DNA of 64,000 nucleotides, from contig NC_089312.1 of the NCBI RefSeq assembly GCF_036669915.1, forward strand, positions 18,644,317 through 18,708,316. Reading direction: 5' to 3'. Positions 18,268 through 63,782 of the stretch are shown here, in pieces. Below the pieces are notes generated by a model. The model worked only from the letters and a program-made list of their open reading frames with translations, did not search any database and was not told where the DNA came from. The first letter of the stretch is position 1. Each line of letters opens with the position of its first letter. Made by a program: the position numbers and the translations under genes. This DNA comes from Pocillopora verrucosa. Lineage: Eukaryota; Cnidaria; Anthozoa; Scleractinia; Pocilloporidae.

Positions 18268-19668
18268 ATGGGCAGCAAACTTTATGGCCATGTTCAACGG
18301 ACTCTTTCCGGGCAGCGAACCACCAATACTTATGGTGTTGGTCAATGGATTCCTTCTGACCAGAAAGTTCTTGACAAATGGTTAGCCAACTTGATAACAG
18401 AAGTCAAAATTAAATCCAAAGATAAGTTAGAGTTATTGCTGGTTCTTCATCCACCAGCTGAAGATGAAGAGACAGCTAGAGCTGAAACTCAGCCGGTAGC
18501 TGCTAACGGTAAAGAAGAAGACCTCGGTCTCCATCCACCGGTTCAAGAATTATTGAAAGCTATCATATCCGACCCCAAAATCTACATGTTCTTCCATCAG
18601 ATGTTCCAGCAACAGTACACTGAGCTCCCACATATTTCGGAAAGGACAAAGATTTCTAGCTGGCAATTGATGATTATATTAATTGACTACATCATGACAA
18701 CAGCTCCAGAGTACAGCAAAGCTGGTTTGGTTAGTTTCCCCATCAACGCAATCCTGAACTGGCCGATGGCTACGACTGCTGGATTTGCTGCTTTCCTCGA
18801 CGACAAAGTCAACACGTTGTTCAAAAGTATTCTCAACTATTGGGGAAAGTTTCTTTCCAGTTCTGCTTCTTGTTACGTGTTGAATGAAAATCCTCGTCAT
18901 GGTTGGTTTGGTGAAGATGCAATGCAAGCAATGCCAAACTTCGACCAAGAGTTTAAATGTAAACCTAATGAAAAACATTATGGTTTTACATCATGGGATG
19001 ATTTCTTCACCAGAGAGTTTCGTGATGGCATTCGTCCAGTAGAATCTCCGGACGACGATTCCATTGTTGCGAATGCTTGTGAGTCGGCGCCATATCAGAT
19101 CTCTACAGCCGTAAAACACAGGGACTTCTTCTGGATAAAGCACCAACGGTACTCATTGGACTTCATCCTGAACATGAGTGACCTTGCCAAGCAATTTCAT
19201 GGTGGAACCGTCTACCAAGCGTTCCTAAGGGCCACCAGTTATCACCGATTTCACAGTCCTGTGTCCGGTACCATTTACAAGACAGAACTCGTGGATGGTT
19301 CTTATTATTCTGCAACCCACGACATTCAGGATGACCCTGCATCGCCCAACATGTCACGAGGATACATAGCCCAAGTAGCTGCCAGAGGTATTATCTACAT
19401 TCAAGCTGACAATCCTGATATTGGCTTAATGTGCTTCGTATCAATCGGTATGTCAGAGGTGTCTTCCAACGAAATCACCGTTGAAGAAAAGGATAAAGTG
19501 AAGAAAGGTGACCAGCTCGGTATGTTTCACTTTGGTGGGTCCACGTATCTACTGATATTTCGCCCTGAAGTAAATATCAAGTTCGATACGAGAGGTCAAA
19601 TGCCAGGTCTAGATACCGAAAACATTCCGGTTAAATCGAAAATTGCAACCGTGCATCCAGCAATCTAA
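18268..19668 (+). CDS. PsiD-like pyruvoyl-dependent decarboxylase, copy 1 (intact)
   Basis: Predicted decarboxylase of 466 residues in the PSD superfamily, in the branch with an additional N-terminal helical domain (as in fungal tryptophan decarboxylase PsiD). A weakly conserved N-terminus is followed by the extra domain (about 85-205, with HPPVQELLKAIISDP and LNYWGKFLSSSAS) and the catalytic domain (about 215-466). The latter shows WDDFFTREFRDGIRPV, NACES, SYHRFHSPVSG and GMFHFGGST. By family analogy, self-cleavage between Gly424 and Ser425 would give a large beta chain and a 42-residue alpha chain with an N-terminal pyruvoyl group. I chose ATG 18268 because it matches the start context of copies 2, 4 and 5; an in-frame ATG at 18184 exists. 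Copy 1 alone has about 17 extra residues near the N-terminus and Phe for Trp in the HRxH motif. It has one exon. AATAAA lies at 20504. The substrate is unproven. Confidence 0.88.
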   Translation: MGSKLYGHVQRTLSGQRTTNTYGVGQWIPSDQKVLDKWLANLITEVKIKSKDKLELLLVLHPPAEDEETARAETQPVAANGKEEDLGLHPPVQELLKAIISDPKIYMFFHQMFQQQYTELPHISERTKISSWQLMIILIDYIMTTAPEYSKAGLVSFPINAILNWPMATTAGFAAFLDDKVNTLFKSILNYWGKFLSSSASCYVLNENPRHGWFGEDAMQAMPNFDQEFKCKPNEKHYGFTSWDDFFTREFRDGIRPVESPDDDSIVANACESAPYQISTAVKHRDFFWIKHQRYSLDFILNMSDLAKQFHGGTVYQAFLRATSYHRFHSPVSGTIYKTELVDGSYYSATHDIQDDPASPNMSRGYIAQVAARGIIYIQADNPDIGLMCFVSIGMSEVSSNEITVEEKDKVKKGDQLGMFHFGGSTYLLIFRPEVNIKFDTRGQMPGLDTENIPVKSKIATVHPAI

Positions 19669-20848
19669 GCAACTAGTAAGGATTTTGATGAACAGCTTGA
19701 TTTTATCAATGTTCAGTATGAACATAACAATTCTCTTTCTTTCCTCTTAGGAAAAGTCTTTTTGTAATAATGAAATTGATTTTTTTTTTTTTTTTATCAA
19801 AGGTTATCATTTTTTTTTATCAAAGGTTATCATTTTTTTTTTTTTATCAAAGGTTATCATTTTAGCTAAATTTAGAAGTGTTTAGCAATTATTTAAATTA
19901 GGAATGTTCTGCGGGCTTAGATTTTGTGAATAATTTAGGCATGCAAGATTATCCTGGAATCCTTATGGAGTTTTGTGAGCCTTGGTTTGTCATGTGCTGC
20001 AGCAAGACCACACATTTATATTCACCATTTGAGTGATTGGTCCTCAACCGTTGTGATAGGCCTTAATTTTTGTACGATAATCGTCATCGATAGTCGTGTT
20101 TGGGTTTGTCCTTGCTAAGCGTCCTCAGCGGGAAGTTTTGTTCAAGGTTTTAGTTCTCGAGGTTTGGAAGTTTTTCAAACACCAGTTGTTTTTTCGAATG
20201 TTTCGTGAAATTATTCTTGTATTTGAAAACAGTCCAATAATATGTGGAAAAAACCTTTTTTATGCAAATCTTTTTGTGCCACAAGCATATCTAATAATTG
20301 ATAGTGTATTTTCAAACCGAAGCATTTAATCACTTAATCAAGCATTTGCGATGGCATTTTTAATAATAATTACGAACCAAAGGTTTCTTAACTCACATTT
20401 GGAGCGAAAGGTATTCCATACCATGGTTTACCGAAAGTGTGATTATAGAGAACTTAATCCTCGATGTGTACATTACCACTTCGTTGATTTTCTGATATGT
20501 AGAAATAAAGCACTGAAAGTGTGTGAAGGGCTTAGGTGTTTTGCTTTCAACTGTTCTTATTAAAAACATCATATTCCACACAACACACCACCTGGAGGAC
20601 ACATTCTAGCCTCAAGGGAACCTGCTTGGTCCATTTTTAGTAACACAATTGTCAATTTTGGCATCGTTAATCTCTGTCAATTATAACAACCCATAAAATA
20701 CCGTAACGTTAGAGCCACTGAAGTTACTGCATCAGCACGTTTTTTGCCGCTAACCCAACCGTTTAAAGACACTTTAAACACTAGGCCAAAATTGATGAGA
20801 TTGGATTGAATAATTGCTGTAGGATTTTATATATATATATGTACTATA
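19669..20848 (+). other. 3' UTR and downstream unit DNA of decarboxylase copy 1
   Basis: Homologous to the DNA downstream of the other copies. It holds a triple repeat of a T-run plus ATCAAAGGTTATCAT (about 19775-19862). The polyadenylation signal AATAAA at 20504-20509, in the shared context GATATGTAGAAATAAAGCACTG, is about 0.84 kb after the stop. The shared tail word GGTCCATTTTTAGTAACACA follows near 20630. Confidence 0.7.
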
Positions 20849-21431
20849 TATACATAAGTTAAAGAATTAAAGAGGACGCATCGATTCTCTGTGACTCTGA
20901 GTTTCGCACCTAAGCACTCGTCAGACAGAACTTTATTCAATGAAAAACATACCTCCTTATGTACAAATTAGCTAAGTAGCTAAACATGCAAAGGAACATA
21001 ATTTGGTTTAATCAAACGGCATCATCGGCAGAGAGTTTCTTAACTTCCTCAGTAAACATTTTCCGAAAAATCACCGGCACAACAAGATTTTCAACAGGAA
21101 CAAAATAAAAGTTTGTTGTAGCTATACAGAAAACCTACAAACCATAATTAAGAAACACATCAGAAAAATCCTCGAGACAAGCGAGACACCCTCCACGGAA
21201 AGCAACTGTAACTGCAGGAAAAAAAACCACTGCCCTCTATGGCTCTATAGAATCTTTATTCCACACGTAGATTAGATCATCACACCAGTGAATAAATTAG
21301 CTACTTATCTAATTTGTATATAAGGAGGTATGTTTTTCATTGAATAAAGTTCTGTCTGACGAGCGCTTAAGCGCAAAACTCAGAGTCACAGAGAATCGAT
21401 GCGTTCTCTTAAATTCTTTAACTTATGTATA
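20849..21431. mobile_element. Foldback / long-TIR element
   Basis: Inverted arms of about 140 bases (20849-20990 and 21287-21431) enclose about 300 bases. The arms share TACATAAGTTAAAGAATT, GCATCGATTCTCTGTGACTC and CATACCTCCTTAT in opposite orientation. TA-rich sequence flanks the left end. It is inserted in the downstream part of decarboxylase unit 1 and splits the unit's shared tail. No coding frame. Confidence 0.8.
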
Positions 21432-22275
21432 CTTAGCTCTGCTACCACAGCATTGAGCACTTTACGCCAAGGTAGACTCTACCCACATTCATTTACATTT
21501 ACCATATATATTTGTATATGAGATAGAACATCGATCACATAGAAACCTACTCTAGCTTCTCTGGGCCCAAGCCGGGAATTTTGATTTTCTGGATGATCTA
21601 AACATTGCGCTGTCATCAAGCCTAACAAATTCTACCGAATGAAATTGATAAGTCGAGCGAACCTATTTGGTCCATTTTTAGTAACACAATTGTCAATTGT
21701 GCGCTAACCCAACCGTCTAACCACTAGGCCAAAATGAATGAGATTGGCTTGAATAAGTGCTGTAGGATTTTAAAGGTTATCTTAGATATATACATATATA
21801 TATTTCTATATTACATTGAAGAAATGTAAAATGGTTTCCGTGTTTACATAGCCTGATGTAAACACGCGGGAGGTTGGGAGAACACGAGATAAGCGTAGGA
21901 AACCACGACGCGAAGCAGAGTGGTTTCCAGCTTATCCTGTGGTTTCCAGCTTTATACAGTTGAAGGTTTCTTTATTCTTCTCTTTCTTTTATTCAACTTA
22001 TTACTTCGGGACTAGCTCAAATCTTTCATGGAAAGTGTGGGTCACCGACTATAAAGCTGACGCTTACGGAGCTGTCAATCTCCAACCTTCGTTATCCTTT
22101 TACACTTGACTAGCGAATCACGTTAAGCCACGCAGAGCAGAGTTTGCATACTAAGTAGGCACCTTCGAGATGTTTACGCTTTACAAAAGGATTTTCTAAC
22201 TTAAATTTTTTTTAGTCTTACGGTCAAGTTCGGGCAAAACAAAAACAAGATTGACAATATAAAAATTACAATAAA
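21432..22275. other. Unit-tail remnant and unassigned DNA
   Basis: A second copy of the unit tail (GGTCCATTTTTAGTAACACA to GCTGTAGGATTTTAAAGG, about 21668-21780) resumes here. After it come TA-rich repeats and DNA with no recognised gene. Confidence 0.5.
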
Positions 22276-23490
22276 CTTACTAACAGAACCAAAATCATAG
22301 TTGAGAAGAAATCCTAAGAGAAAATAGTCCTCGAAGACTGTTATATAAAGACCGAATAAACAGAAAATTTGGAGGAGAAAGGGCGTATCCTAGGTACCGC
22401 CTCCAAGAGAGCTACGTGCTATTCGTATAAGTTTCCTGATTATAAACTCAGTGGGGAGGATGAAAAGTACTACATATTTACACCTTAAGTCACATCTAAG
22501 AAAAAGAGATGTCGAACGTGTTAAAATAAGACCGCCAAAAGGAATAAGAAATGATCGACTGGCTTATCAGAATTTTTACTGAATGGCTTATGGTAATATA
22601 TTATTCATTTTCAACGTCTAGATAAGCCAAAAAACACCTGTAATGAAAATTCTTGCTAGATGCCAATTTTGTCTATTAACACGGCGCTCAATCCTGATAT
22701 GTGCAACCAACTGAAATAAGTTATTTTCCGAGAGACTTCACATAATTCAAAACAAAATTAAAAGGGTCGTCGGAAGCACAAAATGACGGTTGGCGACTGA
22801 TTAAACGATAAAACAAGACTACCCTGAGGGCAGAGTTGAAAAACACCGTTTCATTCCAACCGTCCTATTTCAACTGTGCTAATTCTGTGCCCAAAAATTT
22901 CTTACTAACAGAATCAAAATCATAGTCGAGGAGATATCCTAAGAGAAAATAGTCCTCGAAGACTGTTACATAACGACAGAATAAACAGAAAATTCGGAGG
23001 AGAAAGGGCGTACCCTAGGTACCGCCTCCAAGAGAGCTACGTGCTATTCGTATAAGTTTCCTGATTATAAACTCAGTGGGGAGGATGAAAAGTACTACAT
23101 CTTTACACCTTAAGTCACATCTAAGAAAAAGAGATGTCGAACGTGTTAAAATAAGACCGCCAAAAGGAATAAGAAATGATCGACTGTCTTATCAGAATTT
23201 TTACTGAATGGCTTATTATAATATATTATTCATTTTCAACGTCAAGATAAGCCAAAAAACACCTATAATGAAAATTCTCGCTAGATGCCAATTTTTAACA
23301 CGGCGCTCAATCCTGATATGTGCAACCAACTGAAATAAGATATTTTTCGAGAGACTTTACATAATTTAAAAAAAAAATTTCAAGCGTCGTTGAAAGTACA
23401 AAATGGCGGTTGGCGACTGATTAAACGATAAAACAATACTACCCTGTGGGCAGAGTTAAAAAACACCGTTTCATTTCAACTGTCCTATTA
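22276..23490. repeat. Direct tandem duplication of about 625 bp
   Basis: CTTACTAACAGAA starts at 22276 and again at 22901. The two copies are collinear through GGAGGAGAAAGGGCGTA, CTAGGTACCGCCTCCAAGAG and TACCCTG-GGGCAGAGTT, with small indels (for example TGTCTATT present only in copy 1 near 22670). The last part of the unit also occurs at 28370-28490 and 45480-45600, so the duplication includes a dispersed repeat. Confidence 0.85.
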
Positions 23491-23509
23491 CAACATTGGA
23501 GAAAAGGAA

Positions 23510-23690
23510 AAAACAAAGGCTTCTCAAGCGCAGTTCCACGCACACGCATTCCAAGTTTTGTTTTTAATCATCTCCTTAAGTTTTGCTAAATCATTTCTAA
23601 ACTCAAAAAACGCGTGTGAGACAGAAGTTTACGAGAATCGATGAGTCTCCAAGTTCCTGTTTGTCTAATGACGTAAATCCGTGGAAAGTG
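23510..23690 (+). repeat. Orphan piece of decarboxylase 5' flank
   Basis: CAAAGGCTTCTCAAGCGCAG through GTTTGTCTAATGACGTA matches 34910-35110 and, in part, the 5' flanks of copies 2, 4 and 5. No decarboxylase coding sequence follows it directly. Confidence 0.6.
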
Positions 23691-23984
23691 TTTCCGAGAG
23701 TTCTTTTGTCGTGGATATCCAAGTATTGTTTTAATATGTATCTATCATCAAGTAATAACCATTTTGTGGTTAGTAGTATAGTAGATAGGGTGTTTGAGAA
23801 CATTTTTACATAATGGTCTCGAACCGTCATCTATTATACTTCTACCCTTTTTGTTACTCTCATCTAAATACGTGCAGGTCTCGATGCCGATTGTGCGGTA
23901 GGTTTGATTCCTAACTTGGGCTCAGAAATATTTTTGACTAATTAATTGCTCGGAGGATACCTCCAAATTTCAATCAGTTCGTCC

Positions 23985-24988
23985 AGTCAACGCAAAATTG
24001 ACATGTTGTTTGAACTGATGGGTCTGCAGAAATAAAAAGGCGTTGATATACTAACGTACGCGCGTGTAATATCATGTACTTGTCTAAACTGACATTGATT
24101 GACGATGTTTGGAATAAAAATAAACTTTTCTTCATGTGAAGGCATTGTTTGGAATGTGATGCTGTTAGCAGAAATTTTTGAAAAGAATATCTCGATATTT
24201 CACCACTCTGATTCTCAATCAAAGCTAATGTGGTAAAACAGGAGTCAGTTAAACAAGCGTCATAAACGTTACAGTTTCAAGAATTGGAATAAGTCTACTC
24301 ATTCTAATATTTGATAATACTCTCATTTAAACTGCATTTGGCTACGAATTAATGGTATCTTACTCTCTCAACATATTTTGAATGTGATCTTTAAATTAGG
24401 TTGACATTCATGTTATGATCCATGGACTACTGAGGACTATTGAAAGCTAAAATGTTCTTGCTCGGGATAATTTGTCTTAGGCCAAATCTCACAATGATCC
24501 AAACAAAGACGCGCATCTCTGATATTCAAACAGACAACAAAGAGCGTCTATTTCGGTGAACCACTTCAGTTCCCTGTAACCTAAAGTTCAAGAAAGCATG
24601 ACCCCTCAGAAAGTGAGTGAAACGCGGTTATTCCCTTATTCTTGTATACTCCGATAAGAACATTTGCATGTAGACGTCTCCAAAATGTTTTACTTTATTT
24701 AATTCACTCGGAACATAGCTTATGCCTTTCACACTCCGGCATATTGTTCGCAATGAGACCAACCCTTAACAACCTCTTGATGGTCATGGTATGGAAGGGG
24801 CCTGTCATCTGAACAAAGCGCTTTTATCCTTTATCAGGCAGGAAACATTTCCAGATAAAGGTTTCTCAAGCAAATTTCCGCCCACACGCATTCCAGCGTC
24901 AGGTCCGCCTGCAGTTAAAAGCAGACACTTTCAACAGTAGTATATCATTTAAGAGCAAAACGAGCCGCGAACTACATGCAACATAATC
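23985..24988 (+). promoter_or_regulatory. 5' flank of decarboxylase copy 2
   Basis: This 1-kb block is shared with the units at 29.7, 41.2, 46.6 and 63.8 kb. Landmarks are TATACTAACGTACGCGCG, ACAGGAGTCAGTTAAACAAG and the GGCCTGTCATCTG-ACAAAGCGC module. A TATA-like TATATCA lies at 24941-24947, 42 bases before the start codon. It presumably holds the promoter. Confidence 0.6.
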
Positions 24989-26344
24989 ATGAGCTCCAAA
25001 CCTTACCGTGTTGGTCAATGGATTCCTTCTGACCAGAAAGTTATTGACAAATGGTTAGCCAACTTAACCACAGAAGTCCAAACTAAATAAAAAGATAAGT
25101 TAGAGTTATTGATGGTTCTTCATCCACCAGCTGTAAATGGAGAGACAGATTGTGGTGAAACTCGACCGGTAGTTGCTTACGGTACAGAGGAAGACCTCGG
25201 TCTTCACCCACCCGTTCAAGAATTATTGAAAGCTATCATCTCCGATCCCGAGATCAACATGTTCTTCCATCAGATGTTCTGGCAACAGTACAAGAATACA
25301 GAAAGTTCGAAAAGAACAAGGATCCCTTGCTGGCAACTTATGATTATTTTAATCGACTACATCATGACAACAGCTCCAGAGTACAACAAAACCAGTTTTT
25401 TTGGTCTCCCTATCAATGTAATCCTGAACTGGCCGATGGTTACGACTGCTGGATTTTCTGCTTTCCTCAACGACAAAGTCAACACGTTGTTCAAAAGTAT
25501 TCTCAACTATTGGGGAAAGTTTCTTTCCAGTTCTGCTTCTTGTCACGTGTTGACTGATGATCCTCGTCATGGTTGGTTTGGTGAAGACGCAATGCAAGCA
25601 ATGCCAAACTTCGTCCATGAATTCAAATGCAAGCCTAATGAAAAACATTATGGTTTTACCTCATGGGATGACTTCTTCACCAGAGAGTTTCGTGATGGCA
25701 TTCGTCCAGTAGCATCTCCGGACGACGATTCCATTGTTGCGAATGCCTGTGAGTCGGCGCCATACCAGATCTCAACGGCCGTGAAAAAGAGGGACTTCTT
25801 CTGGGCAAAGCACCAACGGTACTCATTGGACTTCATCCTGAACATGAGTGACCTTGCCAAGCAATTTCATGGTGGAACCGTCTACCAAGCGTTCCTAAGT
25901 GCCACCAATTATCACCGATGGCACAGTCCTGTGTCGGGCACCATTTACAAGATAGAACTCGTGGATGGTTCTTATTATTCTGCAACCCACGACTTTCAGG
26001 AGAACCCTTCGTCGCCCAACATATGCATGTCACAAGGATACCTAGCCCAAGTAGCTGCCAGAGGTATTATCTACATTCAAGCTGATAATCCCGACATTGG
26101 CTTGATGTGCTTCGTATCGCTCGGTATGTCAGAGGTGTCCTCCAACGAAATCAAGATTAAAGAAAAGGATAAAGTGAAGAAAGGTGACCAGCTCGGCATG
26201 TTTCACTATGGTGGGTCCACCCATCTACTGATATTTCGCCCTGGAGTTAATATTGAGTTCGATACGAGAGGTCAAACGCCAGGTCTGCATACCGAAAATA
26301 TTCCTGTTAAATCGAAAATTGCGACCGTACATCCATCAACCTAA
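24989..26344 (+). pseudogene. PsiD-like decarboxylase, copy 2 (one early nonsense codon)
   Basis: Collinear with copy 5 over its whole length, but codon 34 is TAA (25088-25090) where copy 5 has TAC. No other lesion was found. Translation could restart at the in-frame Met at 25109, giving 411 residues that keep the whole extra N-terminal helical domain and the catalytic domain. The latter includes SNYHRWHSPVSG-type His residues, NACES and GMFHYGGST; the pyruvoyl serine would be Ser410 in full-length numbering, or Ser370 from 25109. The lost 40 residues are outside the recognisable domains, so the product could still be active; otherwise this is a young pseudogene. Polyadenylation signal AATAAA at 27033. 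Single exon, same strand and flanks as its neighbours. Confidence 0.8.
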
Positions 26345-27061
26345 GCAAATATAAATATGGATTGTGATAAACAGCTTGATTTTGACAGAGTTCGGCGTGA
26401 ACATGATAATTTTCTTTCTTTCCTCTTAGATGTCTTTTGATGATAGGGAAATTTAGTTTTTTTCATTTTTACCTTGTCAATCGTATGAACTACTAAATTT
26501 AGAAGTGTTCGGCAACTACTAAAATTAGGAATGTTCTGGCTTAGTGTTTGTGAATTGTTTAGGCCTGTTAGATAATTTTGCAATCCTTATGCGAGTCTCA
26601 TGTGAGCCTTGGTTTGTTATGTGCTGCAAGACCACACATTAATTTTTACCTTTTGAGTAGTTGGTCCTCGACCGTTGTAATAGGCTTGTTGTACGATAAT
26701 TGTCATCGCTGGCCGTGTTTGTGCTTGTCCTTGCTTAGAGCCCTCGACGGGAGATTTTGTTCAAGGTTTTAGCCATCGAAGTTTGCAAGTTTTTCAGGCA
26801 TATCTATTTGTGCCAGGAGCATGTCAAATAATTAATGGTGTATTTTCAAACCGAAGCATTTAATCACTTATTCTAGCATTTGCGATGGGATTTGTAATAA
26901 TAATTACTAACCAAGAGTTTCTTAACTCACATTTGGAGTGAAAGATATTCCCATAGTTTACCGAAAGTGCGATAATAGTAAACTTAATCCTTGATGTGCA
27001 CATCACCTCTTAGTTGATTTTTGATATGTAGAAATAAAGCACTGCAAGAATATTAAGGGAT
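26345..27061 (+). other. 3' UTR region of decarboxylase copy 2
   Basis: Shared with the other units. It contains TTTCTTTCTTTCCTCTTAGA just after the stop, the GCCTTGGTTTGTTATGTGCTG block and the polyadenylation signal AATAAA at 27033-27038. Open frames here are not conserved as proteins. Confidence 0.6.
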
Positions 27062-27496: not shown

Positions 27497-27501
27497 ATAT
27501 A

Positions 27502-27556: not shown

Positions 27557-27560
<4 letters not shown>

Positions 27561-29735: not shown

Positions 29736-30124
29736 CCAAAACGCTTTTCCACATAAGCAATCTTATCAAGAAAAAGCGCTGCATGTCAATGTCTACGCAA
29801 TATTGACGTATTATTTGAACCACTGGGATTGCAGAAACAAATAGGCTTTGATATACTAACGTACGCGCATGTTATACCTTATGCTTGTCTAAACTGACAT
29901 TGATTGACGATGCTTGGAATGAAAACAACTTTATCAAGTGCGCTAAGAACTAAGCTTTTTTTCTTCGTGTGAAGGCGTTGTTTGGAATATGATGTTGTTA
30001 GCAGGAATGCTTAAAAAGAATATTTCGATATTTCACCGCTCTGATTCTCAATCAAAGTTAATGTGGTAAAACAGGAGTCAGTTAAACAAGCGTCATAAAC
30101 GTTACAGGTTCAAGAATTGGAATT
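29736..30124 (+). promoter_or_regulatory. 5' flank remnant of decarboxylase copy 3
   Basis: Homologous to the distal 5' flanks of copies 2, 4 and 5, from ACCAAAACGCTTTTCCACA to TTCAAGAATTGGAAT. The proximal promoter has been deleted: the sequence jumps directly into the middle of the coding region at 30125. Confidence 0.65.
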
Positions 30125-30774
30125 GTGATGGCATTCGTCCAGTAGCATCTCCGGACGACGATTCCATTGTTGCGAATGCCTGTGAGTCGGCGCCATACCA
30201 GATCTCTACAGCCGTGAAAAAGAAGGACTTCTTCTGGGCAAAGCACCAACGGTACTCATTGGGCTTCATCCTGAACATGAGTGACCTTGCCAAGCAATTT
30301 CATGGTGGAACCGTCTACCAAGCGTACCTAAGTGCCACCAGTTATCACCGATGGCACAGTCCTGTGTCGGGCACCATTTACAAGATAGAACTCGTGGATC
30401 GTTCTTATTATTCTGCAACATACCACATTCAGGATAACCCCGCATCGCCTAACATATGCATGTCACAAGGCTACCTAGCCCAAGTAGCTGCCAGAGGAAT
30501 TATCTACATTCAAGCTGATAATCCCGACATTGGCTTGATGTGCTTCGTATCGCTCGGTATGTCAGAGGTGTCCTCCAAAGAAATCACGATTGAAGAAAAG
30601 GATAAAGTGAAGAAATGTGACCAGCTCGGCATGTTTCACTATGGTGGGTCCACCCATCTACTGATATTTCGCCCTGGAGTTAATATTGAGTTCGATACGA
30701 GAGGTCAAACGCCAGGTCTGCATACCGAAAATATTCCTGTTAAATCGAAAATTCATCAACCTAGGCAAATATAA
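30125..30774 (+). pseudogene. PsiD-like decarboxylase, copy 3 (5'-truncated)
   Basis: Open frame matching copy 2 from the DGIRPV motif to the C-terminus. A deletion that fused the distal flank (ending GAATTGGAAT) to codon DG removed the promoter and all sequence upstream of DG, so the N-terminal domain is gone. His motif YHRWH, the Gly-Gly-Ser-Thr cleavage site and most of the alpha chain remain. The C-terminus is altered by a 13-base deletion after KSKI, giving a different last few residues. Gly to Cys in KKCDQLG is a further change near the cleavage site. Without the N-terminal domain and promoter it is almost certainly non-functional. The middle and 3' part was copied to 59 kb (copy 6). 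Confidence 0.85.
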
Positions 30775-42492: not shown

Positions 42493-43832
42493 ATGAGCTC
42501 CAAACCTCACCGTGTTGGTCAATGGATTCCCTCTGACCACAAATTTCCAGACAAATGGTTAGCCAACTTGATCATAGAAGTCCAAACTAAATGCAAAGAT
42601 AAGTAAGCGTTATTGATGGCTCTTCATCCACCAACTGAAGATGAAGAAACAGCTAGTGGTGAAACTCCGCCGATAGTTGCTCATGGTACAGAGGAAGACT
42701 TCCGTCTCCATCCACTCGTTCAAGAATTATTGAAAACTATCATCTCCGACCCCGTAATCGACATGTTCTTCCATCAGATGTTCTGTACAAGATTCGAGAT
42801 AGTTCGATAGGAACAAGGATCCCTTGCTGGCAACTGATGATTATTTTAATCGACTACAACACGACAAAAGCTCCAGAGTACGAAACCAGTTTGGTTGGCT
42901 TCCCCATTAATGTAATCCTGAACTGGCCGATGGCTACGACTGCTGGATTTGCTGCTTTTCTCAAAGACAAAGTCATCACGTTGCTCAAAAGTATTCCCAA
43001 CCACTGAAGAAAGTTTCTTTCCAGTTCTGCTTCTTATTACGTGTTGAATGATGATCCACGTCATGGTTGGTTTGGTAAGGACGCAATGCAAGCAATGCCA
43101 AACTTCGACTATGAGTTCAAATGCAAGCCCAGAGAAAAACATCACTGTTTTACATCATGGGATGATTTCTTCACTAGAGAGTTTCGTGATGGCATTCGTC
43201 CAGTAGAATCTTCGGACGACGATTCCATAGTTACGAATGCTTGTGAGTCGGCGCCACATTATATCTCTACCGCCGTTAAGAAGAGGGACTTCTTCGGGTT
43301 AAAGCACCAACGGTACTCACTGGACTTCATCCTGAACATGAGTGACCTTGCCAAGCAATTTCATGGTGGAACCGTCTACCAAGCGTTCGTAAGTGCCACC
43401 AGTTATCACCGTTGGCACATTCCTGTGTCGGGCACTATTTACAAGACAGAACTCGTGGATGGTTCTTATTATTCTGCAACCCACGACATCCAGGATGATC
43501 CTGCATTGCCCAACATATCACAAGGATACCTAGCCCAAGTAGCTGCCAGAGGTATTATCTACATTCAAACTGACAATCCCCGCTTTGGCTTGATGTGCTT
43601 CGCATCAATTGGCATGTCAGAGGTGTCCTCTAACGAAATCACCGTTGAAGAAAAGGATAAAGTGAAGAAAGGTGACCAGTTCGACATGTTTCACTATGGT
43701 GGGTCCACGCATTTACTGATATTTCGCCCTGGAGTAAATATCAAGTTCGATACGAGAGGTCAAACGCCAGGTCTGGATACCAAAAATATTCTAGTTAAGT
43801 CGAAAATTGCGACCGTACATCCATCAATTTAA
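42493..43832 (+). pseudogene. PsiD-like decarboxylase, copy 4 (multiply disrupted)
   Basis: Full-length relative of copy 5 with at least three lesions. Codon 38 is TAA (42604-42606, where copy 5 has TTA). An indel cluster around 42785-42810, just after HQMF, shifts the frame and creates TAG. A TGA at 43005-43007 replaces the Trp of NYWGKF. From 43008 the catalytic part is open to the natural stop and still encodes YHRWH and MFHYGGST. It also has substitutions at normally constant places: PRFGL for PDIGL, QFDMF for QLGMF and FGLKH for FWIKH. This is a pseudogene. Polyadenylation signal AATAAA at 44522. Confidence 0.9.
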
Positions 43833-47670: not shown

Positions 47671-49038
47671 ATGAGCTCCAAACCTCACCGTGTTGGTCAA
47701 TGGATTCCGTCTGACCTCAAATTTCCCGACAAATGGTTAGCCAACTTGATCATAGAAGTCCAAACTAAATACAAAGATAAGTTAGCGTTATTGATGGCTC
47801 TTCATCCACCAGCTGAAGACGAAGAAACAGCTAGTGGTGAAACTCCGCCGGTAGTTGCTCACGGTACAGAGGAAGACCTCGGTCTCCATCCACCCGTTCA
47901 AGAATTATTGAAAGCTATCATCTCCGACCCCGAGATCAACATCTTTTTCCATCAGATGTTCTGGCAACAGTTCGAGAATCCAGATAGTTCGAGAGGGACA
48001 AGGATCCCTCGCTGGCAACTGATGATTATTTTAATTGATCACATCATGACTACAGCTCCAGAGTACAAGGAAGGTTTTTTGGTTGGCGCCCCCATCGCTG
48101 TTATACTAAACTGGCCGATGATTACCACTTCTGGATTTGCTGCTTTTCTCAACGACAAAGTCAACACGTTGTTCAAAAATATTCTCAATTATTGGGGAAA
48201 GTTTCTTTCCAGTTCTGCTTCTTGTTACGTGTTGAATGAAGATCCCCACCATGGTTGGTTTGGTAAAGACGCAATGAAAGCAATGCCAAACTTCGACCTA
48301 GAGTTCAAATGCAAGCCCAGAGAAAAACATCATGGTTTTACATCATGGGATGATTTCTTCACCAGAGAGTTTCGTGATGGCATTCGTCCAGTAGAATCTC
48401 CGGGCGACGAATCCATTGTTGCAAATGCCTGTGAGTCGGCGCCATATCAGATCTCTACAGCCGTGAAAAACAGGGACTTCTTCTGGATAAAGCACCAACG
48501 GTACTCATTGGACTTCATCCTGAACATGAGTGACCTTGCAAAGCAATTTTATGGTGGAACCGTCTACCAAGGGTTCCTAAGTCTCACCAGTTACCACCGA
48601 TGGCACAGTCCTGTGTCGGGCACCATTTACAAGACAGAACTCGTGGATGGTTCTTATTTTTCTGTAGCCCATAACAACCAGGATGACCTTGCATTGATGA
48701 GCCCATGCATATCACAAGGATACCTAGCCCAAGTAGCTGCCAGAGGTATTATCTACATTCAAGCTGATAATCCCGACATTGGCTTGATGTGCTTTGTGTC
48801 AATCGGTATGGCAGATGTGTCCTCCAACGAAATCACCGTTAAAGAAAAGGATAAAGTGAAGAAAGGTGACCAGCTCGGCATGTTTCACTATGGTGGGTCC
48901 ACCCATCTACTGATATTTCGCCCTGAAGTTAAAATCGAGTTCGATACGAGAGGTCAAACGCCAGGTCTGCATACCGATAACATCCCGGTGAAATCAAAAA
49001 TTGCGACCGTACATCCGCAATCTAGGAAATTTAAGTAA
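47671..49038 (+). CDS. PsiD-like pyruvoyl-dependent decarboxylase, copy 5 (intact)
   Basis: 455 residues, one exon, no lesions. The extra N-terminal domain spans about 70-190 (HPPVQELLKAI, NYWGKFLSSSASCYVL). The catalytic PSD domain spans about 195-455: WDDFFTREFRDGIRPV (226-241), NACES (252-256, aligned with the motif that has a catalytic Asp in bacterial PSDs), YHRWH (308-312) and GGST (408-411). Known family chemistry predicts autocleavage before Ser410, which becomes the pyruvoyl cofactor of the alpha chain. No signal peptide or membrane helix is visible, unlike mitochondrial PSD, so the enzyme is probably soluble and cytosolic. ATG 47671 is conserved among copies; the frame is open upstream to 47557. 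The C-terminus (QSRKFK) is slightly longer than in copy 1. Polyadenylation signal AATAAA at 49691. An aromatic amino acid is the likeliest substrate by family branch, but that is unproven. Confidence 0.9.
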   Translation: MSSKPHRVGQWIPSDLKFPDKWLANLIIEVQTKYKDKLALLMALHPPAEDEETASGETPPVVAHGTEEDLGLHPPVQELLKAIISDPEINIFFHQMFWQQFENPDSSRGTRIPRWQLMIILIDHIMTTAPEYKEGFLVGAPIAVILNWPMITTSGFAAFLNDKVNTLFKNILNYWGKFLSSSASCYVLNEDPHHGWFGKDAMKAMPNFDLEFKCKPREKHHGFTSWDDFFTREFRDGIRPVESPGDESIVANACESAPYQISTAVKNRDFFWIKHQRYSLDFILNMSDLAKQFYGGTVYQGFLSLTSYHRWHSPVSGTIYKTELVDGSYFSVAHNNQDDLALMSPCISQGYLAQVAARGIIYIQADNPDIGLMCFVSIGMADVSSNEITVKEKDKVKKGDQLGMFHYGGSTHLLIFRPEVKIEFDTRGQTPGLHTDNIPVKSKIATVHPQSRKFK

Positions 49039-55440: not shown

Positions 55441-55740
55441 GGTACTAAACCCGCCCTTTTTAACTTCTAAAAGCTATGATGAGCACCTCAGTACCTTTCT
55501 TAGAAAGCGCAGTCAGAGGGTCTGAATGGGAGGGTCAAAATGTCGGTTGTCGGTTAAAATTTCATTACTTTGTCGGTTGTCGGTTAAGATTTTTTGACCT
55601 TTGTCGGTTGTCGGTAAATCTCAGTTAATAATTAAAAATACACGTTAATTATTCACATTTATTATGCAATTTGCCCAGTTTTAAGACTTTAAACTCTAGA
55701 CGAAGTGTAATACTTGTAATAATTCATTATTTGTTTTCAC

Positions 55741-56001
55741 TTAAACCTCGTTAACGCTGTTTTTTAATTTAGCAACGTGCTCATCTACCCCACTTTTGTT
55801 TGCAAATCTAGTATACCGATAAAATTCACCAAAGCTTTTATTAAAGATGTGAATTTTTTTCCTGTCGACTACGGGGCATCGAAGTAAATCAAGAGAGGTA
55901 AATTCTACAAAGAATGAAACACCCACTCTAGCCCCTGGGATACCTAATTTTAATTTGTAAGCTACGGAAGTCTTTTTTCCGAGACGTCCACAAAAACTCA
56001 C
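55741..56001 (-). other. Exon-like open frame, unknown
   Basis: About 86 codons, open without ATG at its left limit (GTG). A possible splice acceptor (AAGTGTAG) precedes it. It lies inside the TIR-bounded element, downstream of the gene below and on the same strand. The peptide (LGIPGARVGVSFFVEFTSLD and onward) resembles no family I know. Confidence 0.3.
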
Positions 56002-56134
56002 TACACTTATTATTCAACGGCTCTCGTGGCTTTTCTGCGAGGTTTCTTTTTTTTCTCTTTTTTTTGGCCAAAAATTTGGTTGTCATACGTATCAATCTGC
56101 ACCGTTAAATGGGTTTTTTAACTGTTAGTACCTC

Positions 56135-58670
56135 TTACATGTCGAGACGCACAAATGCACGAACAGCCCTGCCGGATCGGGTAACACACGCTCTGTTGAC
56201 AACCTCTGGATGTTCTTCAAAATCTGATTCCTCGTCATCCGAATCTGTCTCATACTCATCGATTTGTACTTCTCTGTGATCCTCAAACACCTCAGTAACA
56301 TCCCCTTCGTCCACAAATTGTATGCTGACAACGCGTTGTGCATTTGCTGACGATACAGTGTTTTCTTCAGGATATCGAAGCCTCTCTTCAGACTCGTCGG
56401 TGTGGTGAACGGCGTAGACAGCTGGCGGCAAGGCCCCAGCCTTATCTTTTGTGGTCTCACTCCTAACCGTCCGTTGGCGTACTGGTCTGTAACTCTCTAG
56501 CCGCTCTTTTATCTGTCCTTCCATCCCTGGTGTTATGTCCTCACTTGGCAAAGGTGTCATCGTAGCTATAGCAGAAAGGGGCCTGGCGGATTGAGTTACC
56601 GGATAGTAGGATTTGTCATGCGTGTAGTACTTTGCTGCCCATCTAGATGTGCGCTTCAGAGATTCCTTGCAAATTGTTCCAAAATCCTGGGCATATGTAA
56701 GTACCGTAAATGTCTCGCGTTTAAGGTGCGAAACAGCGCGCAAATTTTCCACTACTGTTGTGAGCAACGTTTCGAGCAGCAGATCATCTACAAATTGGGG
56801 GCTAATGTCCATCACGTTCTTGTATAGCCTTTCTATGCCCTTTTTAAGTAAAGACACAGATACTTGCGTCTTCTGTGATACAGTTCCCTGTGGACCATTG
56901 GTTGCAGACGTCTCGCTCAACTGGTAGCGTTCTTTCACCTTACTCACAGTGTCTTTTACATAGCTGTCAATCTTTGTCACGTTCTCTTTTGCTTGTTTCA
57001 AGGACACTCCGTCTGGTTTCATACCCTTAGAATGAATTCCAAAGGTATCGTAAAGGGAGCCAAGAATCCCCAGAAAAGATACAGTTTCTGAGAGGTTCGT
57101 CACTAGTTTTGGTTAAACAGAGTTCGTTTTTCTTGAATCCGCAAAACTTACATGCACTTCGCTATCAGCCATGGAATCAGCATCTAACTTTTTAAGATCT
57201 TCTTCCCTACCTGAGAAGATTCAGAATTTACAAATTTTTTGTTGTTTTCTGTGTTTTCAGCCATGATTTGGGCTTTGGCCACGGTTTCTTTTACCAACGC
57301 TACAAGAAGACGGCGCGAACATTGGTTGTCTTGGTTTATTTTTAAAAATACATTTTAGCCCGGCAAATTCTTTATTTTAGCACGCAAAATGCGCCACAAT
57401 GCCCATCAAAGTGATAATAATACAGTTTTTAGCCGGAATTTAAAAGAAACTATCTTTACATAGCGAACGCACCAAGTGAGCGTTTTTCGTTGTATAAACA
57501 AGGCAGTGTTTATAAACAAGGAATACCGCAGAATTTCCAAAGTAGCGAAATTTATGACTTTTGAAAATCAGGTAAACGAACTACAAGTGCTAATTCAGCC
57601 CTACCATCCTGAAACTTTTGAAGGTCTCCTTGTTGCCTTTCGTTTCTCTCGATGTCACCTCCTTCAGTCATGATCCTCTTTGCCAGATTTTCATCTTCTT
57701 TTGCTTCTTCTCGTGAATTCCGTTTCCTTCTCACTTTTGACTCGTCACCTTTCTTCTCAGTGTCGTTCATTGACTTCTGCTTGCTTTTATCAGGTGTAGC
57801 CGGCGCCTTCAGCAACACTACTGGCTTTCCGGTCAGTTTGTGACCTCTTCGATAATGTGTACTAAAATATTAAATACCGTGTGTTTTAAGTTTTCTCTTT
57901 AGTAGGCTTTTGAGAAACTTACACAGTTATTATCAGCAAATGCTCGTCAAGATGTATAAAACGTGCACATCGAGCGAAATCTCTCGTGCGTAGCTTCCCT
58001 CGAGGAGAGAATTGAATATTATTTGAACGTCTGGTTTTCAGAAACGAATAAATTTAAGGGCGTGTATAAATAAACGGGGTCTTTAATATGTTAAGCTACA
58101 CTGTTGTTCATTCACCAATTAATCAGAAAGAAGCTTATAAACTGATTTACTCGCTACTTCTTTGTAGAGATTTTTCTTCTCAATTTTCGCATTCAAATGG
58201 ACGGTGAAAAAGAAAAAAAAAACATTCCGCTCCACAAAACAACAACAAAAAAAACGGTGGAACCAGAGTTTAACCACGTTAATATTTGAGCTTAATATTT
58301 AACTACAGAACTAAAGTGATTCATCAAACTCCGCTGCACGCGTTCCACACTTACCGTTGAGCTCACTGCTACTTTCATCCGATATTAAATTTGGAAGTTC
58401 AAGCTGCCATTGCCCATCCGTCACAATTGCAAAATTTTCGCATTTGCCCGCAGGCGATTTCGCCAGGCGAAATAACTTTAACGAAAATCCGCCAATTCCA
58501 TATTGATGTGCCTGCTCCTTTAGTCCTAAAAACTCCGTAAGATGTTTTTTTAGTTCAGATACTCCTCTATGAGCTTCTTTGTCTACTGGGACCCTGCTTC
58601 GATGACGTTCGATGGCGACTTCTTCACCTTTTCGAAAAAAACTCACGATGACTTCAGCAATCCCAGTCAT
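56135..58670 (-). pseudogene. Three-exon gene of unknown function inside a TIR element, one in-frame TAA
   Basis: Exon 1 (58355-58670) starts at ATG 58670 (MTGIAEVIVSFFRKGEE) and ends AACG|GTAAGT. Exon 2 (57605-57844) is basic and charged (KVRRKRNSREEAKEDENLAK) and ends GATG|GTAGGG. Exon 3 (56135-57210) follows TTCTCAG and ends with a very acidic stretch and TRSGRAVRAFVRLDM. All joins are phase 1, and the total length is a whole number of codons: 543 residues if the single TAA at 57113-57115 is read through. The acceptor of exon 2 is weak. A GTAAGT at 57151 could mark an extra intron around the stop, but the only nearby acceptor leaves just 49 bases and breaks the frame. The C-terminal signature reminds me of element-linked cnidarian proteins. 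Function unknown. Confidence 0.55.
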
Positions 58671-58708
58671 GACCCGACCGCATGAACAAACAACGAGCAA
58701 TAAAAAGA

Positions 58709-58812
58709 CAACAGCAGGGCGTCTCGTCGGCTCGATTATGATCCGCTGTTCTTGAAATGAGACAGCAGGGCGTCTTGTCAGCCCGATTACGAGCCGCTGT
58801 TCTAGAAATGAG
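58709..58812. repeat. Two-copy tandem repeat upstream of the element gene
   Basis: GACAGCAGGGCGTCT-GTC...CGATTA-GA-CCGCTGTTCT-GAAATGA occurs twice in a row, just before the start codon of the minus-strand gene. It is probably in the 5' UTR or promoter and keeps the frame open by chance. Confidence 0.65.
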
Positions 58813-59053
58813 CCCACGCTGCTCACCGAAAAGAAGGATCCCGTGGATTTAAAGTAATTTGAAGACAAGAAATTCTATAATTCGGCTAAATTTGGAATTA
58901 ATGTGGTTACGTCGGGTGAAGAAGGATTTTCTGAGCTAGAAATCATCAAAATGCTGTTCTTTATGAATACAAACATCCCTATCACGTCTGATTATGTCGG
59001 TTGTCGGTTAGAATTTATTTTGTCGCTAGTCGGTTAACCCCATTCACACCCTC

Positions 59054-59502
59054 AATTTCATGGTGGAACCGTCTACCAAGCGTACCTAATTAAAAAAAGT
59101 GCCACCAGTTATCACCGATGGCACAGTCCTGTGTCGGGCACCATTTACAAGATAGAACTCGTGGATGGTTCTTATTATTCTGCAACATACCACATTCAGG
59201 ATAAACCCGCATCGCCTAACATATGCATGTCACAAGGATACCTAGCCCAAGTAGCTGCCAGAGGAATTATCTACATTCAAACTGATAATCCCGACATTGG
59301 CTTGATGTGCTTCGTATCGCTCGGTATGTCAGAGGTGTCCTCCAAAGAAGATCACGATCACGATTGAAGAAAAGGATAAAGTGAAGAAAGGTGACCAGCT
59401 CGGCATGTTTCACTATGGTGGTTCCACCCATCTACTGATATTTCGCCCTAGAGTTAATATTGAGTTCGATACGAGAGGTCAAACGCCAGGTCTGCATACC
59501 GA
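59054..59502 (+). pseudogene. PsiD-like decarboxylase, copy 6 (fragment)
   Basis: The fragment begins abruptly at the right end of the TIR element, in the QFHGGTVYQ motif. A nine-base insertion (ATTAAAAAA, with an in-frame stop) lies near 59088. A seven-base insertion in the SSKEIT region near 59347 shifts the frame and ends the open frame at 59367. The Gly-Gly-Ser-Thr codons are still present at about 59420, out of frame. The 3' end of the gene is missing: a deletion between two GAAAAT words joins ACCGAAAAT to TTAGAAGTATTTGG of the 3' UTR. It was copied together with the DNA downstream of copy 3. Certainly non-functional. Confidence 0.9.
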
Positions 59503-60820
59503 AAATTTAGAAGTATTTGGCAACTAGTAAAATTAGAAATGTTCTAGCTTAGTGTTTGTGAATTGTTTAGGCCTGTTAGATTATTTTGGAATCCTTATGC
59601 GAGTCTCGTGAGCCTTGGTTTGTTATGTGCTGCAAGACTACACATTTATTTTTATCTTTTTAGTAGTTGGTCCTCGACCGATGTAATAGGCTTGTTGTAC
59701 GATAATTGTCGTCGCTAGTCGTGTTTGGGCTTGTCCTTGCTTAGAGTCCTCAACGGGAAATTTTGTTCGAGGTTTTAGCCATCGAAGTTTGGAAGTGGTT
59801 CCAGCACATCTTTTCGTGCCACGAGCATGTCTAATAATTGATGGTGTATTTTCAAACCGAAGCATTTAATCACTTATTTTAGCTTATTTTAGCATTTGTG
59901 ATGGGATTTTTAATAATAATTACTCACCAAAAGTTTCTGAACTCACATATGGAGTGCAAGATATTATCATGCTTTACCGAAAGTGCAATAGTAGTAAACC
60001 TTATCCTCGATGTGCACATTACCACTTAGTTGGTTTCTGATATGTAGAAATAAAGCACTGCAAGAATGTTAGGGGCTTACATTTTTTGCTTTCAACTTTT
60101 CTTATTTAAAAAATCACATTCCACACAACACAACAACTCACCGAGAGAACAAATTCTAGCCTCGAGCGAAACTATTTGGTCCACTTTTAGTAACACAATT
60201 GTCAATTGTGTGCTAATCCAACCGTTTGAATACTAGGCCAAGAGTAATTAGGATTTTAAAGGCATTCATTCTCAATGCATTAATCCTCGGTGTGCACATT
60301 ACCACTTTGTTGATTTCTGATATGTAGAAATATAGCACTGCAAGAGTGTATTCAAACAATTAGCTGTAATCCTAAAAGAGGTGCCAGTTTTTGAACTCCT
60401 GAACTCCTTCTTATTTGGTGGGTATTTTCGTTGCTCAGCCCATTCCTTGTCTTTCTTGCGCATTCGACAAGATTAGAAAACTAAGCTGAACGTACCCGAA
60501 CGTGATTAACAATCACCAATATTTGTTTCGAAGGAAACTATAGGTTTACATGAGGATAAGGTTTTCTACGCCTTTAGGGAGAATGAGGTAGTCGGTTAGT
60601 GACCACCAAAAAACAAATCGGTCAGCCAGCCCACGGAAGATCTCAAGCTACTGAAGGGAAGGAGAGATCAATCAGAGAGACAGACAGACAAACAGACAGA
60701 CAGACACGCGAAATAAAGACGGATGGACTGATGGAGAGGCGAAGGGATAGACTGGCTTAAGGACGGCAGAACGGACGGATGGCTGTAGCTTGGTTGCAGA
60801 ATTCTTCAACTGAAAATCTG

Positions 60821-61112
60821 TAACCCTTGAACTCCAAGATCTCATTAGTTATTCTCCTTACTTTCTGCTTTACAATTTTTATGATGTCTATTTGGAGAAT
60901 GTGGTAATGGAACAACTAATAATCCCCTAATTGATATTTTTGTTTTTTCCCATCACTTCTAGGCCTGATATGGTCTTGTTATTTAGCCTGCGTTGCTGGT
61001 GGTTTGCGGTCTTGTGGGCGGAGAAAAAAACCGCAGACCGCCGGCAACGCAGGCTATTTGTTATTGTAAGGAAACATTTTTCTATTGGCTACTCATGGGA
61101 GGTAAAGGGTCA
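60821..61112. mobile_element. MITE copy d with nested hairpin element
   Basis: Same as 32207-32487 but with the complete right end (CTACTCATGGGAGGTAAAGG). The nested hairpin is at 60984-61057. Confidence 0.65.
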
Positions 61113-61618
61113 AACAAAATTAAGAAAATTTAGCCTTACAAGATTACATTGACCTAAATCAGTGAAAGTCACAGGGAATTAGTTTGTTGCAATATCCACG
61201 AGCTGCATGCCTTGAATGTGCTTTAGAATGTCCTGGGAACTTAAAGAAACATACTGCCACCATTGGGGGGGGGAGAAAAGGGTGAAGGTGTAGCTACCAT
61301 TTACGCGCCACAAGTTAAATTATTATGTGCTTTGCGTGCGTACAACGTTTCCCGACCCTTCTTTCTTATGTCAGTTTAAAAGCGTTGTTGTCTCTCAGTT
61401 TTAAGGCTTTATAACCGACATGTCCCTCTCGATTGATTTTCGTGACATTAGCCTTATGGACCTTTGAACAAAAGTTATTTGGATGTTAGATTTAAATGTT
61501 TTGGAAATAGTGAAACAAAGTAGTTGATAAGATGGTCGCATTCTATACTTGTGGACATTAGATGCAGTTAACTTGTTTATTAATCGATTTACTGTATCCT
61601 AAGTTAATGCATAAAGGT

Positions 61619-61661
<43 letters not shown>

Positions 61662-62784
61662 TATGACAGGGTGATTTAGTGTTATCAATTCAGTTGATAA
61701 CGTCAATTAACCACCTTAAAGAGTTCAGTTCAAAAGCGTTCAAACTCTCTACAGAGGCCAATTTGCGCTATCAAGTCAGCTGATAACACTAAATTACTAG
61801 TTAATGTAGGCTAATTGTTGGAAGCTAATTGTGACCGTTTCGGAATTTTGCCAACTTGTGGAAAAAATTATTTGTCATTATCAACGATGGTTTGAGTTTA
61901 CGACGTTAACACTTAATCTGCGTGATAGGTGAGAAGGAGTACTGGTAATAAATAAGTTATAGAGGTATATGGTGCCCCCAGATATGTGGTTTTTAAGCCG
62001 TTCTGGTACAAAGACAGGTCGGTGTACATTTTTACCATTTTGGTTTAAAATTAGGTATAGTTTTCAAGAAAACCACACAAGTGTATAAACGTAACTTATC
62101 AGTTTTCAACATGAATCAAAGTGAAACACAAGTATGAAAAATATATTTTTGGGTGATTTTTGTAACTTCTTAACTTCGGCACTGATACAAGCCTTTTCAA
62201 ATTCTTCTACAACATAGCGTAAAGGATTCTCAAACCAAACAAAATTTGTCTGGTGTAGATATTAGAGGCCAGGTACAAAACTAAATATAGAAATAGCACT
62301 TCTTATATCTGAAATAGGGTCTGAGTGGATAATCCCTGCCAAACATCCCGAGGCGGATCTTCCTCCCTATCGGGGGTGGCATCGTGACGACCTGAGTGGA
62401 GCTTAACTTTTATCTTTAAAAATCTCATTACAATGAATTGAAAAAAGTTTATCCAGCAAGAATTTAGCACCTATGAGCATTGATTTGAAACATCGAGAAT
62501 CGGCCGAAAAAATGAAATAGTATCTTCTTATTTGGCCCAATGACCCCTTCGGCTAAACTTTGTTTGCGCAAGGCCCATATTTGAACCAGTTTTGCTCCTA
62601 AACTGGGTCAGTCTGGTTAAATATTGGCAGTATTAAAATAAACCAATTAATCGTGTTTAAAGCAACATACAGTGTACTACCCATGAAAAGTTGAAAATTC
62701 GGCCGTTCAGACGGAGCCCAAGGAAGTTTTTATGACTCTTTGTCCAGTCTCTTGGATGTGTCCAGAAGAAGTTTTATCAGTAGC

Positions 62785-63782
62785 CTACGTGTAGCCCCAC
62801 CCTCCCCCACCTCCCAGGTGAAACGGAGGCGACGGAACGTTTACGCAAACCTGACACTTTTCGTGTTCAGTGACTTCATTCCAACTTATGCAAAATAATG
62901 CCATTTTTGCGAAGTGGCACGTGTTAGCGTGCAGGTTATCGAGATAAACAACAACACTGAAGTGAATTCATTTTCCACTTTTCAGGTAAATTTGCAATTC
63001 AGCGTCCGATTTCAAATAAATATTTTGCTTTAAGGATATAGGGAAAGATTATGAGCGATTTTTGGTATAGAGTAAGAAGAGGACGATGTTCGATTAGCAT
63101 CGCACTTATGAAATCCACGCGGTTTCTGCTTGCATTTGTAAACAGTGCCACGGTCGACGAAAAAAGTTGGATCATTTGCCGCAGTCTCAAGGTTTTTTAG
63201 GATTTCTATAAGAGAAAGTCACACTACAAGCGTGAATAAAGAGTTTTTTTTTTCTCAGTCGAAAGAATCGCTGCAAGAAACAACTATCTTTAAATTAATT
63301 AAGTGACTCAACGTCCGGCAGCCTGACACGTTCTTAATAGCTTCGCAACACCGTTCGCAAAGAGACCGAAGGTTAAAGGTGGACAAACGAAATGGAGACA
63401 TCGTTACCTTCCAAAAACATATTTATGACTTTCTGCTGTTCTTCTTGAGATGTCTCTATCCCAAAAGTCGTGCAAACTTGCCTTAAAACCTAGTCGTACA
63501 TCGCTGTTGTCTGAAAAGTTGACCCTCAAAGACTTCTGTTCACCGTCCGGTTCGTTACTTTGAAAATAAATTACCTACTCTAACAAATCAGAATTGACGA
63601 AAAAATATGCAAAGAGAGATTAACCAATGAAAAGTCATTATACATTTTCTTGCAAGAGTGACATCACAGAACACGATTAGTGTCAAGTTTGCTTAGACTT
63701 TATCACGCCTCCGTTTCACTTTGGGGGGGGGGGGGGAAGGGGAAAGGGGAGGTTACGGCTACACATAGGCCGGATCAGTGGT
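62785..63782. mobile_element. TIR-bounded repeat block with RecQ fragment (e)
   Basis: Left end at about 62785-62885 and right end at about 63655-63782, as in the 34.0 and 40.1 kb blocks. It contains the recurrent minus open frame (62999-63190). The helicase fragment (63389-63501, ATG at 63501, with the same premature TAG as fragment b) is cut by a deletion at about 63388. Confidence 0.65.

Follow-up and report, generated by a model that had tools for sequence, protein, structure and literature searches.

The window analysed here, a stretch of 64,000 nucleotides from Pocillopora verrucosa (C1:18644317-18708316, part of a 353 Mb assembly in which C1 is a 36.6 Mb contig), holds six copies of a gene predicted to encode a pyruvoyl enzyme of the PSDC type, that is, of the family of PsiD and the fungal arginine decarboxylase, a kind already known from fungi and bacteria. 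The copies stand head to tail on the + strand over 41 kb and two of them are intact, as the initial annotation had proposed and as tblastn and the open frames bear out. We consider it probable, with some reserve, that the locus represents a horizontally acquired and tandemly amplified family of amino-acid decarboxylase genes, partly intact under purifying selection, whose products are cytosolic and self-cleaving. Within this reading, architecture, copy number, intactness, selection, separation from the canonical phosphatidylserine decarboxylase (PSD) of animals, PISD, and kinship are directly supported by the data given below.

Gene structure and domain architecture

Six intact copies were found in the genome, each a single uninterrupted exon of 448-469 residues that starts just before RVGQWIPSDQKVLDKWL or a close variant of it, copy 1 carrying 16 additional residues there. 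The N-terminus is collinear with that of bacterial relatives (e.g. RVGKWLPSDQVVLDRWV), homology beginning near the N-terminus (RVGxWLPSDQ), and no leader was visible by eye ahead of the N-terminal block in the intact copies. The coding GC content is 0.44-0.45, versus 0.39 in the region. In copy 5 and in loci L001, L002, L004 and L005, the frame stays open for 59-67 further codons ahead of the ATG (about 200 bases) with no starting ATG, and the length differences of this open stretch between copies are multiples of three. Since the ATG agrees with the N-terminus of the bacterial proteins and the frame preceding it seems, by eye, conserved no better than the flank, a coding exon further upstream was discounted on these informal grounds.

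The two-domain architecture of the PsiD type had been suggested from the sequence together with a Pfam check, and the check confirmed it: PF12588 (PSDC) and PF02666 (PS_Dcarbxylase) both occur in copies 1, 2 and 5 with E values of 2e-35 to 6e-42, far past the cut-offs, those for PSDC alone being 6e-38 to 6e-42 (copy 2 was scanned as the frame downstream of its stop). The open frames of copies 3 and 4 match PF02666 only, to which the genome-wide scan adds a partial PF12588 match in copy 4. Genome-wide, PF12588 gave 12 matches, all above the cut-off, with 11 at C1:18.66-18.80 Mb and one at 25.81 Mb, and it had no match in any of 14 control genomes, of which those named are prokaryotes. The motifs initially listed, WDDFF, NACES, YHRWH and GGST, are all present, YHRWH being replaced by YHRFH in copy 1. 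GGST is found in all six intact copies and in all 21 bacterial rows. In alignment A2, which has 26 rows (6 animal and 20 bacterial), no row departs from GGST, from the Glu of ACE or from the first His of YHxxH. The proteins combine what marks the PSDC family: PF12588, PF02666 and a GGS[T/S] cleavage motif with conserved His and Glu.

A sequence search of the PDB returned PsiD (8x4q, E = 1.6e-61; 8zia, 2.7e-61), 9jer (8.6e-60) and E. coli PSD (6e-9). PsiD is the L-tryptophan decarboxylase of Psilocybe (PMC12603985), and the PDB titles name 9jer and 9jf5 as the Aspergillus oryzae arginine decarboxylase, in the former case free of arginine and in the latter with it. Since both belong to one family, two amino-acid specificities already occur within the PSDC family. 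For the copy at C1:18752743, an AlphaFold2 model built from 12 rows (pLDDT 72, pTM 0.74) ranked these structures similarly by template-modelling score (by target), with 0.74-0.75 for PsiD (five chains), 0.68 for 9jer/9jf5 and 0.51-0.59 for E. coli PSD.

The array proteins resemble PsiD in the PSDC plus PS_Dcarbxylase architecture, the fold, YHRWH and ACES, and differ from it in overall sequence (40.3% identity over 330 columns), in 26 positions conserved in the animal copies and the nearer bacteria that disagree with PsiD and match the arginine enzyme, and in the cleavage motif: GGSS, described in PMC6121855 as unique to PsiD, is absent from all six intact copies, which carry GGST. With the Aspergillus oryzae arginine decarboxylase they share the family, the fold, WDxFFTR, NACES, FW-K and VYQAFLSA; identity is 39.5% over 332 columns, and that enzyme has YHCWN where the array has YHRWH.

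Extent of the array and condition of its copies

With one intact copy as the tblastn query, the array was found to extend past the window and to comprise 15 main copies over 134 kb (C1:18662635-18796956), all on the + strand, six inside the window and nine outside. The region contains 17 tblastn places in total, the other two being short N-terminal fragments of 25 and 44 aa. Just past the window and inside the array, 7,500 bases (C1:18708317-18715816) read N, and further copies may hide there. A dispersed singleton, also intact, lies near C1:25808750, about 7 Mb from the array. Five of the 15 main copies are intact, which with the singleton makes six, and the remaining 10 are broken; full-length frames from the conserved ATG are those of copies 1 and 5, the copies at C1:18752743, 18764836 and 18786001, and the singleton.

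Inside the window, copy 1 (18268..19668, +) is an intact single exon of 466 aa from the ATG at 18268, in a frame open from an ATG at 18184, with both domains. Its YHRFH motif lies at 19240..19254 (+), its first His being the one invariant in alignment A2, and its GGST motif at 19534..19545 (+), where, by analogy with the family, self-cleavage would be expected to turn the Ser at 19540-19542 into the pyruvoyl group. Copy 2 (24989..26344, +) has one in-frame stop near codon 34 and is otherwise open across both domains. Copy 3 (30097..30774, +) is a 5'-truncated pseudogene that retains the catalytic domain, and copy 4 (42493..43832, +) a pseudogene with stops and a frameshift in its N-terminal half. 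Copy 5 (47671..49038, +) is again an intact single exon with PSDC and PS_Dcarbxylase, encoding 455 aa from the ATG at 47671, and copy 6 (59008..59515, +) is a remnant of the catalytic domain in two frames. The last family match ends at 59515, with none found by tblastn in window positions 59515-64000, so that the end point of 63782 first given for the array lay about 4 kb too far.

Homology between copies reaches well outside the coding part, which points to tandem segmental duplication. For the singleton, a processed retrocopy was considered and rejected in favour of segmental copying, because no poly-A was seen by eye at the junction and the singleton meets new sequence where the array copies continue. 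Two smaller repeats were also observed in the window: a direct repeat between copies 1 and 2, whose two 300-nt units are 96% alike and lie 625 bases from each other (22276-23200), and two adjoining near-identical open frames that form a short tandem repeat of about 220 bases (15903-16346).

Purifying selection on the intact copies

Across all 15 pairs of the six intact copies, the ratio of nonsynonymous to synonymous substitution rates (dN/dS) is 0.27-0.47, with dS of 0.09-0.27. Neutrality was rejected in all five pairs tested (p from 5e-11 to 2e-4, with approximate site counts). The intact copies are under purifying selection, and several copies still look functional from their sequences. We also considered that the array might be mostly a decaying relic whose copies persist through duplication, none being expressed now. 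The 10 broken copies among the 15 and the two extra N-terminal fragments of 25 and 44 aa would fit such a state, but the six intact copies, their dN/dS and their retained catalytic motifs make it very doubtful.

Distinction from PISD and other phosphatidylserine decarboxylases

The genome-wide search with PF02666 gave 19 matches, 16 of them on C1 (array and singleton) and three in exons at C2:585163-586407. By eye, the C2 exons look like canonical PISD, the gene having introns and showing the motifs SPADG, YHSFHSP and LGST, and PF12588 had no match at this locus. Canonical animal PISD was accordingly rejected as the identity of the array genes, which are single-exon and carry GGST and PSDC, the host PISD being a separate multi-exon gene on C2; the distinction drawn in the initial annotation is thus upheld.

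A broader form of the same idea is that the array encodes a phosphatidylserine decarboxylase that works in lipid metabolism outside the mitochondrion and was gained by horizontal transfer, in the way proposed for PSD genes of sponges. The PF02666 catalytic domain and GGST would agree with it, and some canonical type II PSDs also carry GGST. All NCBIfam matches are to phosphatidylserine or archaetidylserine decarboxylases, at under half of the cut-offs of these models. In the part of PMC4784904 that we drew on, three putatively transferred genes of the sponge Amphimedon are filed as PSDs; they are the nearest printed precedent found, and by description they are likewise of the PSD superfamily, of prokaryote type and in a non-bilaterian animal. 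A coral proteome also lists a protein named phosphatidylserine decarboxylase (PMC7006924), without indication of its type. Since the array proteins have the PSDC domain, since their best matches by far are amino-acid decarboxylases, since the Asp of the canonical SPADG is replaced by Glu in them (by eye, against the host PISD), and since the host already has a PISD, we regard a lipid-metabolic PSD as highly improbable.

Origin and bacterial relatives

The closest relatives in our sample are bacterial PSDC-type proteins named "phosphatidylserine decarboxylase family protein" (from the Enterobacter plasmid pUPC1, Photobacterium, a Methylococcaceae metagenome-assembled genome and G001), which are collinear with the animal proteins nearly throughout and carry GGST; those of the G001 phylum differ in having a leader, as judged by eye. 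Identity to the animal copies is 47-57% for 11 of the 21 bacterial rows, 36-42% for the other 10 and about 40% for both fungal chains. Such relatives are rare and patchily distributed, with 4 of 297 genomes of the G001 phylum and 1 of 369 of the G002 class positive at E 1e-40, and PF12588 found in 5 of 398 genomes of the G002 phylum (the centre genome being counted in each case). Plasmid-borne relatives were represented by loci from 12 of 24 plasmid records, and G897, a fragment that did not get past the blastp filter, stood outside the tree.

The animal copies form one clade (100/100) in each of three trees, which have 29, 27 and 19 rows. A 100/100 branch in the 29- and 27-row trees parts ten rows (seven Burkholderiaceae and three others) from the animals and 11 bacteria, and PsiD and 9jer, where included, fall on the latter side as long branches whose order there is not fixed. 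Without the fungal rows, the animals nest among the bacteria, with 100/100 for the side and 87/84 for the next fork, shared with Lactobacillus, Photobacterium, Plesiomonas and Aeromonas. Given identities of 47-57% to 11 bacteria and of 40% to the fungal sequences, in a comparison that covered two fungal chains and no animal but this host, a bacterial source is the simplest reading, and the gene was probably transferred horizontally from a bacterium into the animal lineage.

A fungal donor would also be conceivable, since the family is known from fungi, since PsiD and 9jer share a side of the tree with the animals and 11 bacteria, and since the approximately unbiased (AU) test does not reject animals with PsiD. 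The lower identity to both fungal chains, the two sampled, and the NACESAP, YHRWHSPVSG-type and GGST motifs common to the animals and those bacteria make it improbable. A viral vector was rejected: two scans of viral contigs gave no relative, and phage records gave six weak matches of 24-28% identity. Contamination was likewise rejected, as the contig holding the array is 36.6 Mb long and has animal genes next to the array, the animal context being indicated by a class A G-protein-coupled receptor, an exon like a vesicular glutamate transporter and the PISD gene.

Among the bacterial loci, L010, L057, L058 and L059 (G001, G174, G038 and G090) have N-terminal extensions that to the eye resemble export signals, a twin-arginine pattern being present in one of them, and others such as L009 and L011 lack such extensions. 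The plasmid loci L061-L065 of Burkholderiaceae form a second, more distant bacterial PSDC clade with the motifs FQ[YF]GGST and SACEA; DNA ligase D, a manganese catalase and a response regulator were seen as their neighbours in single records.

The likely substrate

The initial annotation had called the genes tryptophan-decarboxylase-like. As a description of PsiD-like genes tandemly amplified in animal DNA this stands, but as a statement on the substrate it does not, the arginine enzyme being about equally close, the motif being GGST rather than GGSS, and polyamine-type antiporters adjoining some relatives. Directly upstream of the decarboxylase genes of Enterobacter, Photobacterium and G827, a protein matches TIGR00905 ("basic amino acid/polyamine antiporter") above its cut-off; these antiporters pass no substrate-specific equivalog cut-off, their best such models being the arginine-ornithine and then the histidine-histamine one. 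An antiporter adjoining a decarboxylase gene is the usual layout of amino-acid decarboxylase systems. This position makes a basic amino acid the likelier substrate in those bacteria and, with less force, in the animal. Our first guess, held tentatively and slightly short of an even chance, is a basic amino acid, arginine (giving agmatine) or another; an aromatic amino acid, our second guess, is possible with a clearly smaller chance. Agmatine would be at least as likely a product as tryptamine, which is one option and not the best supported.

According to the aromatic alternative in its full form, the array would encode a decarboxylase of tryptophan or another aromatic amino acid, making tryptamine or phenethylamine-type amines by a pyruvoyl rather than a pyridoxal phosphate (PLP) enzyme. 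Both sequence and fold give PsiD as the best PDB match, and positions such as 310, 364 and 405 of the array proteins agree with it. The near restriction of DDC, HDC and TDC to Bilateria, as stated in PMC10244343, would leave room for another route, and passages of PMC6165293 describe tryptamine as enriched in jellyfish stress mucus, ascribing it to the usual AADC/DDC. Set against this are the arginine decarboxylase, about equally close, the GGST in place of GGSS, positions 271-272 (FW) and 299-307 (the YQAFLSA region), which agree with the arginine enzyme and the bacteria and not with PsiD, and the antiporters beside three bacterial relatives, which fit basic amino acids best. We consider this alternative rather unlikely.

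Several points weigh against the reading that we favour, an amino-acid decarboxylase of bacterial origin acting, as a first guess, on a basic amino acid. The AU test rejects neither animals with PsiD (p = 0.33) nor animals with the arginine enzyme (p = 0.11), and the eukaryotes in the comparison are two fungal chains and the copies of this host. The confidence of the AlphaFold2 model is moderate, the other four models scoring lower. At the 217 columns where the arginine enzyme and PsiD differ, the animal consensus agrees with the former at 50 and with the latter at 57, and 51 discriminating columns common to the animals and at least nine of the 11 nearer bacteria split into 26 for the arginine enzyme and 25 for PsiD; given these near-equal counts and identities of 39.5% and 40.3%, similarity does not decide the substrate. 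An antiporter was found in only 3 of 19 bacterial neighbourhoods, all three within the 11 of the nearer clade, and Plesiomonas, the tree neighbour of Photobacterium, has none. Of these neighbourhoods, 11 were read by annotation and 8 by a list of open reading frames (ORFs); among the 8 only G827 was checked by family, so that for 7 of the 19 the ORF list stands alone and an antiporter could be missed. Lastly, the part of PMC6165293 cited here reports a 7.8-fold rise of tryptamine in Aurelia stress mucus, which for a cnidarian host leans towards the aromatic alternative.

Neighbouring genes and PLP decarboxylases of the host

About 14 kb upstream of copy 1, a class A G-protein-coupled receptor is encoded in one open frame (window 3614-4669, -), its best PDB matches being melatonin-related, muscarinic, melatonin and dopamine receptors. 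An exon like that of vesicular glutamate transporter 2 lies at window 63-413 (-), and similar-looking frames further upstream (L042 and L043, -; by eye) suggest a tandem SLC17-type group beside the array.

PF00282 and human AADC, used to look for a PLP aromatic decarboxylase of the host, gave no match, in a search made exon by exon and without a positive control in an intron-bearing genome. A PLP-decarboxylase motif pattern was found at 8 places, versus 5 for a reversed control. Animals generally have glutamate decarboxylase. We do not claim absence of PLP decarboxylases, as the same search would have to have missed glutamate decarboxylase too. PMC10244343 reports that DDC, HDC and TDC hardly occur outside Bilateria, apart from a few cnidarian cases, and describes the monoaminergic system in its title as an innovation of bilaterians. 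A search by title and abstract opening, covering papers other than subscription papers and preprints, found none on PsiD-type decarboxylases in cnidarians.

Proposed route and its meaning

Taken together, we infer the direction of transfer, the self-cleavage, the cell location and the substrate in the following scheme. A bacterial gene would have entered the animal lineage, where tandem segmental duplication would have multiplied it. Its product, made from one exon and without an evident leader, would cut itself before the Ser of GGST, this Ser becoming the pyruvoyl cofactor, and the mature enzyme would act in the cytosol, turning a free amino acid into an amine by decarboxylation. It seems to us evenly poised whether this bacterial-type pyruvoyl decarboxylase, with its 15-copy array and dispersed copy, gives the animal its own supply of agmatine, tryptamine or a similar bioactive amine, made independently of PLP and used in signalling or chemical defence.

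How non-bilaterian animals make amines is an open question, as PLP decarboxylases are described as almost bilaterian-only in the consulted text of PMC10244343, yet tryptamine is reported from jellyfish mucus in that of PMC6165293. If the proposal is true, an intact and amplified bacterial-type pyruvoyl enzyme would constitute a separate animal route to amines, its relevance hinging on the host being a non-bilaterian, and invertebrate genes annotated as "phosphatidylserine decarboxylase" could be amino-acid decarboxylases.

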